47,393 nucleotides of DNA from the NCBI GenBank assembly GCA_026982395.1, contig JALSHD010000160.1:1-47393 (forward strand), in the 5' to 3' direction. This DNA comes from Chromatiales bacterium (GTDB lineage Bacteria > Pseudomonadota > Gammaproteobacteria > Thiohalospirales > Thiohalospiraceae). Position 1 is the stretch's first letter, and every line of letters begins with the position of its first letter. Shown here piece after piece: positions 2,356 through 4,541 of this stretch. The notes beneath the pieces were generated by a model. The model saw only the letters and a program-made list of their open reading frames with translations, was not told the DNA's origin and searched no databases. The translations under genes were made by a program, and so were the position numbers.

Positions 2356-3528
2356 TCAGCTGCGCAGCCCACGTTTGATATCCGCCTTTATATCGGACAG
2401 ATCTTCAAGACCGACAGCAATGCGTATCAACCCATCGCTGATACCGGCACTGGTGCGTGCATCGGGCGTCAGTCGTCCGTGGGTGGTTGTTGCCGGGTGG
2501 GTAATGGTTGTCTTGGTATCACCCAAATTAGCGGTAATGGAGATCATTTTTGTACTGTCGACAAGGCGCCAGGCTGCCTCTTTTCCTCCTTGCAGTTCAA
2601 ACGCAAGCACTCCGCCAAATGCACGTTGCTGCCGCTTGGCCAATTCGTGCTGAGGGTGTGATGTGAGTCCGGAATAGTAGACACGTTTGACCTGAGGCTG
2701 CTGTTCCAGCCAGAGTGCCAGACTTAGCGCACTGGCGCTGTGCGCCTCCATCCTCAGGCGCAGGGTCTCCAGCCCCTTCAGAAAAATCCAGGCATTGAAA
2801 GGGCTCATGCTGGGTCCCGCAGTACGCAAAAAACCGTACACTTTTTCCATATGTTCGTCGGCGCCGATCACCGCTCCACCGATGGCCCTGCCCTGACCGT
2901 CTATATATTTTGTAGCGGAATGAATCACAATATCGGCACCCATTGCCAGAGGCAACTGCAAAGCGGGTGTGCAGAAACAGTTATCCACCACCAACAGGCA
3001 GTCGTGCGCACGGGCAAGCTCGGCGAGCGCGGTAATATCTGCAATCTCTGCCATCGGATTGGAGGGTGTTTCCACAAACAGCAGACGGGTATTGGGCTGG
3101 ATTGCGTGCTCCCAGGCATCCAGATCGCCGGGTGCAACATAACTGGTCTCGATACCGAAACGCCCAAGGTGATCGTTAAACAATACTGTGATGGAACCGA
3201 AAATTGCCCGTGATGAAACAATATGTTCTCCGGCATTGAGCAGGGCCATGCAACAGCTCAGGATGGCTGCCATCCCGGAAGCCGTGGCAACACAGCGTTC
3301 TCCACCCTCCATTGCCGCCAGTCGCTGTTCAAAAGTGCGCACGGTAGGATTGGTGAAACGTGAATAGATATTTCCCAGCTGTTCCCCTGCGAATACCGCA
3401 GCAGCTTCTGCAGCACTCTGAAACACATAGCTGGAGGTGGTAAAAATCGGCTCCCCCTGCTCCCCTTCATTAGTTCGCCGCTGGCCGGCCCTTACCGCAA
3501 GAGTATCAAATCCGAATTCATGTTCCAT
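2356..3528 (-). CDS. metZ: O-succinylhomoserine sulfhydrylase
   Basis: 390 residues, the usual length for this Cys/Met-metabolism PLP enzyme, which makes homocysteine from O-succinylhomoserine and sulfide in the cytoplasm. The PLP-binding lysine is in HSATKYIDGQ (about K207). Other family blocks are IYSRFTNPT near 54-62, ASGMAAI near 83, ETPSNP near 153 and the C-terminal SVGLEDLSD-like stretch (here AVGLEDLSD). The GDTKTTITHPATTTH block is typical of the MetZ/MetB/MetC group; the N-terminal FDTLAVRAGQ form favours MetZ over MetB. GAGGA lies seven bases before the ATG. Upstream there is a SAM-II-type leader (3564-3655), so the gene is probably repressed when SAM is plentiful. Confidence 0.9.
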   Translation of the reverse strand: MEHEFGFDTLAVRAGQRRTNEGEQGEPIFTTSSYVFQSAAEAAAVFAGEQLGNIYSRFTNPTVRTFEQRLAAMEGGERCVATASGMAAILSCCMALLNAGEHIVSSRAIFGSITVLFNDHLGRFGIETSYVAPGDLDAWEHAIQPNTRLLFVETPSNPMAEIADITALAELARAHDCLLVVDNCFCTPALQLPLAMGADIVIHSATKYIDGQGRAIGGAVIGADEHMEKVYGFLRTAGPSMSPFNAWIFLKGLETLRLRMEAHSASALSLALWLEQQPQVKRVYYSGLTSHPQHELAKRQQRAFGGVLAFELQGGKEAAWRLVDSTKMISITANLGDTKTTITHPATTTHGRLTPDARTSAGISDGLIRIAVGLEDLSDIKADIKRGLRS

Positions 3529-3563
3529 TGGCTAATCCTCGGTTAGTGAAAATCACTGGGCAC

Positions 3564-3655
3564 AAAAAAACCCGCTCAGCTTGGGCTAAAGCAGGTTAGG
3601 CCTCCCTTTAGCAGAATTTGTAATGCGCCCGCAAGCTGGATCAAATCGGCGCAAT
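3564..3655 (-). promoter_or_regulatory. SAM-II riboswitch with intrinsic terminator ahead of metZ
   Basis: Read on the minus strand. A 6-bp P1 stem TGCGCC/GGCGCA (3653-3648 with 3629-3624) encloses a loop starting GATTTGATCC. An A-rich strand and then GCTAAAGGGA (3612-3603) follow. Order and bases match the SAM-II (SAM-alpha) core as I remember it, with TCC of the loop able to pair with GGA after GCTAAAG to close the pseudoknot. Downstream is a 10-bp terminator stem (3595-3585 with 3580-3571, loop CCAA, one bulge) followed by seven U. GCTAAAG can pair instead with CTTTAGC inside the terminator stem, which would be an antiterminator. SAM binding would free CTTTAGC and stop transcription. The mechanism is inferred. 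Confidence 0.8.
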
Positions 3656-3659
3656 GTAT

Positions 3660-3688
3660 AGTGTACGTGCAGGTTAGGATAAAATCAA
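3660..3688 (-). promoter_or_regulatory. Predicted sigma-70 promoter of the metZ leader
   Basis: On the minus strand TTGATT (3688-3683) is followed, after 17 bases, by TACACT (3665-3660). The expected start near 3653-3655 coincides with the first base of the aptamer P1 stem, as usual for riboswitch transcripts. The -10 box is only a partial match; TATACA just downstream is an alternative. Confidence 0.5.
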
Positions 3689-3794: not shown

Positions 3795-4541
3795 TCAGTC
3801 ACGGGAATCAATCCGGCCTGCTGCTTCCGAGTCCAGATAGAACTCAACCTGCCCCAAAGGCTTCAACATCTCAACCGGAAACTGCGGGGAATGCGGGGAT
3901 CCCGAAAGAATCTGTTGCACTACAGACCGCTTGTCCGCCCCCGCAACCAGGAACAAAACATGTCGTGCAGAATTGATAACCGGAAAAGTAATACTGACTC
4001 TCCAGCTGGATTTCTGTTTGACATAGACCGCATCCACATAGCGCTCCTGCTGATTCAGGATATCCGTATCGGGAAACAGGGATGCGGTATGACCATCGGG
4101 ACCAATTCCCAGCAAAACAAGGTCAAACCGGGGAACCCCGTTTTCTGCTTTGGGAAGATGATTAACCAGTACCTGCTCATAGCGATACGCCACCTCCTGC
4201 ATATCCCCGCTCTCTGTTTCTATCCTGTGGATGTTGGCGTCAGGAACTGGAACATGATCCAGAAGTGACTCCCTTGCCATTCTGAAATTGCTGTCCGGAT
4301 GGTCACCGGGAACAAATCGTTCATCCCCAAAATAGATGTGAACGCGCTGCCAGTCGACTTTTCTCGAAATATCGGTCCGGGAAAGAAGATGATAGAGCTG
4401 GCGAGGCGTCGAGCCACCCGCAAGAGCCACATGAAAATCCCCGTGCTCCGCAACAGATTCCCGGTAAAAATCGAGCCAGCGTTCAGCTACAGCGGCGCCG
4501 AACTCCTGCCGAACAGTATATATTTTTATCTCTGCCCGCAA
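3795..4541 (-). CDS. pgl: 6-phosphogluconolactonase
   Basis: 248 residues of the DevB/SOL type, hydrolysing 6-phosphogluconolactone to 6-phosphogluconate in the oxidative pentose phosphate pathway. Visible family motifs are ALAGGSTP near residue 39, YFGDERFVP near 70, LGIGPDGHTASLFP near 143-156 and SWRVSITFPVIN near 177. The start is a TTG at 4541 preceded by GGGGGAG with six-base spacing; the first ATG in frame would cut off the GGSTP and GDER motifs. It lies between metZ and the H1-like gene, facing the same way. A hairpin terminator at 4561-4592 separates it from the gene upstream. No glucose-6-phosphate dehydrogenase is in the window. Confidence 0.9.
   Translation of the reverse strand: MRAEIKIYTVRQEFGAAVAERWLDFYRESVAEHGDFHVALAGGSTPRQLYHLLSRTDISRKVDWQRVHIYFGDERFVPGDHPDSNFRMARESLLDHVPVPDANIHRIETESGDMQEVAYRYEQVLVNHLPKAENGVPRFDLVLLGIGPDGHTASLFPDTDILNQQERYVDAVYVKQKSSWRVSITFPVINSARHVLFLVAGADKRSVVQQILSGSPHSPQFPVEMLKPLGQVEFYLDSEAAGRIDSRD

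Follow-up and report, generated by a model that had tools for sequence, protein, structure and literature searches.

The metZ leader of a Chromatiales bacterium: a SAM-II riboswitch with a predicted transcriptional platform

The window analysed here is a whole stretch of 47,393 nucleotides, contig JALSHD010000160.1 of a Chromatiales bacterium. On its minus strand it carries metZ (2356..3528), coding for an O-succinylhomoserine sulfhydrylase of 390 aa which matches NF006003 with 699.9 bits (cut-off 522) and TIGR01325 with 588.5 bits; a MetZ relative at 89% comes from a Gammaproteobacteria MAG. A 16S gene was looked for in the genome and not found, and the genome is placed by its taxonomic grouping and its MetZ relatives. 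The gene upstream, on the same strand, is pgl (3795..4541), and the leader of metZ lies between the two. Read 5' to 3' on the minus strand the leader contains TTGATT-N17-TACACT, TGCGCC, GATTTGA, TCCAGCTTGC, a single G, GGCGCA, an A-rich strand, GCTAAAG, GGAGGCCTAAC, CTGCTTTAGCCCAAGCTGAGCGGG and TTTTTTT. The last 35 nt, after the T7, contain the Shine-Dalgarno-like GAGGA of metZ (3536..3540), which is outside both aptamer and terminator, and the metZ ATG. All leader features below are on the minus strand.

A scan with the Rfam model RF00521 (SAM_alpha, SAM-II), which the initial annotation had suggested, gave a match of 37.4 bits with an E-value of 5.8e-5 (cmscan, Rfam 15). This exceeds the gathering score of 36 by only 1.4 bits; the alignment spans the full length of the model, 1-79. 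It is the sole riboswitch match in the window, where the same scan found one tRNA and nothing else, and neither a SAM-V nor a second aptamer. In the whole genome RF00521 occurs as a single copy (E 7.6e-7), and the same search gave 0 matches in 14 control genomes. The match covers 3662-3585 and metZ begins 57 nt downstream of it; this position and the two protein matches confirm that a SAM-II element stands ahead of metZ, as had been proposed.

The aptamer proper occupies 3597..3662. The RF00521 alignment places the two strands of P1 at 3648..3653 (TGCGCC) and 3624..3629 (GGCGCA), which in the window form six standard pairs. Over a set of 26 sequences, gamma and alpha, 99.3% of the P1 cells are paired, and three of the six pairs have changed on both sides. 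Between P1 and P2 is the loop L1, GATTTGA (3641..3647), which presumably holds the ligand-contacting U's of the known structure and of which GATTTG is nearly invariant in the alignments. The 5' strand of P2, TCCAGCTTGC (3631..3640), is the pseudoknot partner of GCTAAAGGG. With pair numbers that we take to follow the solved structure of the Sargasso Sea RNA, pairs 23-42 and 22-43 are each formed in 122 of 122 distinct gamma loci and pair 16-50 in 116 of 122, and slid registers mostly break them. The core pairs of P2 are formed in the window, where the outer pair 15-51 is absent. For P1 and P2 as a whole the covariation score of the 26 sequences is 0.377, against 0.154 in shuffles and at most 0.164 in slid registers. 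An A-rich strand (3613..3623) leads to GCTAAAG (3606..3612), which is at once the 3' strand of P2, the SAM-contacting strand and the 5' strand of the antiterminator described below; GCTAA(A) is found in nearly all loci. The blocks GATTT, TTGC and GCTAAA, which presumably contact SAM as in the published structure, are invariant or nearly so in the alignments and all intact in the window. P1, GATTTGA, the A-rich strand and GCTAAAG thus all lie where the initial annotation had put them. Judged from its sequence the metZ leader carries a genuine SAM-II riboswitch, and from the family and the conserved contact residues its ligand would be SAM.

A putative sigma-70 promoter (3660..3688) consists of a -35 box TTGATT at 3688-3683, a 17-nt spacer and a -10 box TACACT at 3665-3660. 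It agrees with the consensus at 8 of 12 positions, which is a weak match alone, and a consensus promoter scan of the window reported nothing for the leader. Across 132 related loci TTGACA-like boxes (at least 5/6) peak 34-40 nt upstream of P1, and the -35 box of the window begins 35 nt upstream of it; the location also agrees with the 2005 description of SAM-II, where a promoter is found a few nt before P1 (PMC1273637). The proposed promoter with its start at P1 is therefore weak by itself but sits at the comparative peak, and the transcript is expected to start at P1 or just before.

Directly downstream of the aptamer the fold shows the complete intrinsic terminator that had been predicted there (3564..3596), with a stem ACCTGCTTTAGC/GCTGAGCGGGT at 3596-3570, a T7 at 3570-3564 and a stability of -13.4 kcal/mol. 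A simple terminator scan of the window did not report it, probably owing to a one-base bulge in the stem. The 5' arm of this terminator includes CTTTAGC (3591-3585), to which GCTAAAG (3612-3606) is the exact complement, and the two can form an antiterminator hairpin GCTAAAG..GAGG..CCT.CTTTAGC (3585..3612, -10.4 kcal/mol). GCTAAAG is thus common to P2 and the antiterminator, and CTTTAGC is common to the antiterminator and the terminator. When the growing transcript is folded, P1 appears, next the antiterminator as the MFE structure at 76-82 nt, and from 88 nt the terminator is the MFE structure.

The explanation that fits these features best is that metZ is controlled, very probably, by a SAM-II riboswitch whose platform switches transcription OFF. 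In the proposed model RNA polymerase would begin near the 5' end of P1. At low SAM, P1 would form and the P2 pseudoknot would not be held, so that fresh GCTAAAG could pair with CTTTAGC once this has emerged. The antiterminator would then occupy the 5' arm of the terminator, polymerase would cross the U-tract and metZ would be made. At high SAM, the ligand would clamp GCTAAAG in the P2 pseudoknot and leave CTTTAGC free, the CCTGCTTTAGC/GCTGAGCGGG hairpin would form before the U7, and transcription would stop after about 85-95 nt. What was observed directly is the family membership, the gene context, the anatomy, the conservation and the mutual exclusion of the pairings; the direction of the switch (OFF with SAM) is a prediction. 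It should be noted that the isolated terminator exceeds the antiterminator in stability by about 3 kcal/mol in the window, with a median difference of 2.1 over 84 loci, so read-through in the absence of SAM would have to be kinetically controlled. Such kinetic control, suggested by the folding calculations, is the weakest link of the switch model.

For comparison we used a set of 117 loci from the class together with 18 leaders from named records (gammaproteobacterial MAGs for the most part, with some species duplicated); 134 of these loci have a recognisable GCTAA strand. According to tblastn with seed proteins, the gene downstream is metZ in 102 of the 134, metK in 9, metY in 4, metF in 4, metN in 1 and metX in 1, altogether 121. 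A U-tract was found in 111 loci, and 23 of the 134 are without an obvious one.

It could be argued that the hairpin is a constitutive attenuator, or a terminator of the upstream pgl, and is not gated by the aptamer at all. The terminator is thermodynamically the stronger structure, pgl (4541-3795) shares the strand, and in Sinorhizobium meliloti no effect of SAM is predicted on the terminator of the metA leader (PMC9373788). Against this reading, all seven antiterminator pairs (G-U allowed) are kept in 84 of the 111 U-tract loci, which are related to one another, against 4.9% in dinucleotide shuffles. The full pairing is missing in 27 of the 111. When other aptamer heptamers are tried, only 0-18 of these loci contain a partner, and the antiterminator is within the nascent MFE fold in 81 of 84. 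Few two-sided changes are seen in the antiterminator pairs because GCTAAAG is already fixed by the aptamer. At the seventh base, two metK leaders (L232, L233) have GCTAAAC with GTTTAGC, a C-G for a G-C; over all, 61 of 63 loci are paired at this position against a permuted mean of 57.2, and the two bases following GCTAAAG pair more than permuted partners do. With the terminator staying behind the aptamer across genera, and a promoter-like box ahead of P1, we regard an ungated terminator as improbable. The role of antiterminator strand proposed for GCTAAAG in the initial annotation, from its perfect complement in the window, is upheld by the kept pairing and by the exchange seen in the nascent folds.

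Within the GTDB family RF00521 was found at E 1e-3 in 8 of 12 genomes. The genus yielded seven metZ loci, six of them with the leader; one of the six (L259) had escaped the Rfam search. The seventh (L258, in genome G003) has metZ and lacks the SAM-II leader, likely a recent loss inside the genus. When the six leaders are aligned, identity to the window is 90% over aptamer and terminator and 78% over the first 90 nt of metZ; it is 55% for the sequence separating the U-tract from the ATG, 48% in the promoter region and 23% in the sequence before that. By this alignment the pattern of identity is that of a selected RNA element.

The same pattern bears on control at the level of translation, in which P2, when SAM is bound, would hide the ribosome-binding site and the downstream hairpin would be incidental. 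The Sargasso Sea metX RNA reportedly works in this way. Such compact SAM-II RNAs exist, the S. meliloti metA leader controls translation (PMC9373788), and the GGGAGG following GCTAAAG resembles a Shine-Dalgarno sequence. This GGGAGG is, however, without a suitable start codon after it, and the ATG of metZ is closely preceded by a GAGGA of its own, about 60 nt downstream and past the terminator. Terminator and aptamer share the identity of 90%, against 55% for the stretch leading to the ATG. Because the Shine-Dalgarno sequence of metZ lies beyond the terminator, translational control is very unlikely. A degenerate or chance match without function, to which the Rfam score near the cut-off might point, is hardly credible with every SAM-contacting block intact, the leader ahead of metZ in six of seven metZ-bearing genomes of the genus and in 102 gamma-class loci, and 90% identity within the element against 23-55% in its flanks.

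The initial annotation considered a transcriptional SAM-II on metZ unexpected, and a gammaproteobacterial host unusual. Neither view can be kept. In alpha- and betaproteobacteria the platform predicted most often for SAM-II is a transcription terminator (PMC2258182), and SAM-II terminators were published in 2005 (PMC1273637) and for S. meliloti metZ in 2022 (PMC9373788). Gammaproteobacterial SAM-II was noted in 2007 and is reported in two papers (PMC2258182; PMC2704228); as described below it is also widespread. The first description of SAM-II, as the metA motif of alphaproteobacteria (Corbino et al., 2005; PMC1273637), already has P1, the P2 pseudoknot, a promoter near P1 and frequent downstream intrinsic terminators, as in the window. 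The closest known system is the S. meliloti metZ leader (Scheuer et al., 2022; PMC9373788), with the same aptamer class and the same target gene, in which the prediction is that SAM binding leads to a Rho-independent terminator and to the release of an sRNA of about 100 nt (RZ), which is visible on Northern blots. Taken alone, the riboswitch of the window is one more SAM-II, and its mechanism had been proposed for the class before. What goes further is the distribution across the class and a shift of the shared strand.

S. meliloti is an alphaproteobacterium, and in alpha-type leaders the antiterminator uses (A)GGCCGG after GCTAAA, whereas that of the window uses GCTAAAG itself. Alpha-type leaders also have GGCC/GGCC in P2b, which in the window is shorter and of other sequence. 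Taking as alpha those matches in the phylum outside the class that bear an alpha-type aptamer, we found in 36 such leaders with a U-tract that the stretch with the longest complement in the terminator follows GCTAAA, at positions 7-11, in 69-89% of loci. Examples are GGCCGGG/CCCGGCC and AGACCGG/CCGGTCT; GCTA takes part in 8-17%. Among the gamma-class loci, 111 in number, the longest complement falls on GCTAAAG in 82-86%. In four metX leaders of the class, a Gallionella metX leader and two metK leaders this longest complement starts at the G of GCTAAA (7 of 7). As predicted from these complements the logic is the same in alpha and gamma/beta leaders, and the shared strand has moved.

The class Gammaproteobacteria of GTDB takes in the former betaproteobacteria. 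Among 369 genomes of this class RF00521 matches 118 at E 1e-3 and only 31 above the Rfam cut-off. A covariance model, R1, built from 30 gamma aptamers with the sequence of the window included, matches 182 of the 369 genomes, spread over 133 of 271 genera, and about 161 of these genomes have E < 1e-9 (counted from the table). The Rfam cut-off thus hides most gammaproteobacterial SAM-II. SAM-II is therefore not sporadic here; on these model matches it is common in the class and not an oddity, and surveys calling gammaproteobacterial SAM-II rare, horizontally acquired or absent need revision. There are also places where it was looked for and not seen: three betaproteobacterial metZ loci, of a Methylophilaceae (L051), Gallionella (L071) and Sulfuricella (L085), have no leader, none was seen before metZ of Pseudomonas and Azotobacter, and there was no SAM-II in the two genomes searched.

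SAM-II leaders with a terminator stand before metX at L249 (a Gallionella MAG), L131 and L228-L231, mostly below the Rfam cut-off. NCBIfam confirmed the identity of metX for L249 and L131, and the metX leaders tested have the same antiterminator. A betaproteobacterial metXZ element was treated as new by its authors (Leyn et al., 2014; PMC4239095), and it resembles the window in that a pseudoknot of conserved regions, and then a terminator, precede metX or metZ. In that survey of methionine regulation SAM_alpha was confined to Rhizobiales and Rhodobacterales. The metXZ element and the SAM-II metX leaders are probably the same thing, and the scores under the Rfam cut-off would explain why the survey missed them. 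We consider it likely that gamma/beta SAM-II is a distinct and widespread lineage, present in roughly half of the class genomes sampled and including the betaproteobacterial metXZ element, in which GCTAAAG itself is the antiterminator strand. If this is true, ligand contact and the choice of platform use the same seven nucleotides. A platform based on GCTAAAG would be a compact switch, with one strand for binding and regulation, and would suit studies of co-transcriptional folding.

Some further arrangements were observed. In gammaproteobacteria SAM-II also precedes metK, the gene for SAM synthetase (L098, L111, L117, L136, L163, and further L175, L176, L180, L232 and L233); in several of these metK leaders the terminator has no complement to GCTAAAG, and they may therefore use a different platform. 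Model R1 matches the single genome G256 at 10 places. Tandem SAM-II aptamers, the first of them followed by a terminator, are found at L100, L109, L118, L123, L125, L130, L190 and L193, where the second aptamer has a P1 of other sequence and in several cases GATTTA instead of GATTTG. As a novelty tandem SAM-II was rejected, since 44 cases have been published (PMC9481103). A system described in the same paper has a SAM-II part and then an intrinsic terminator, as in the window, which differs in having neither SAM-V nor a second aptamer. The tandem at L190 precedes a gene for a MoxR/RavA-like AAA ATPase (a weak match) and not a methionine gene; the leader at L109, in a second genome, is similar and looks like the same arrangement. 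At L100 the tandem is followed by an open reading frame of 363 aa, for which NCBIfam gave no match. Finally, one genome (G370) holds both an alpha-type SAM-II with a CGTGG P1 before a metY-like gene (L090) and a gamma-type SAM-II before metZ (L121), a coexistence which suggests lateral transfer of one of them.
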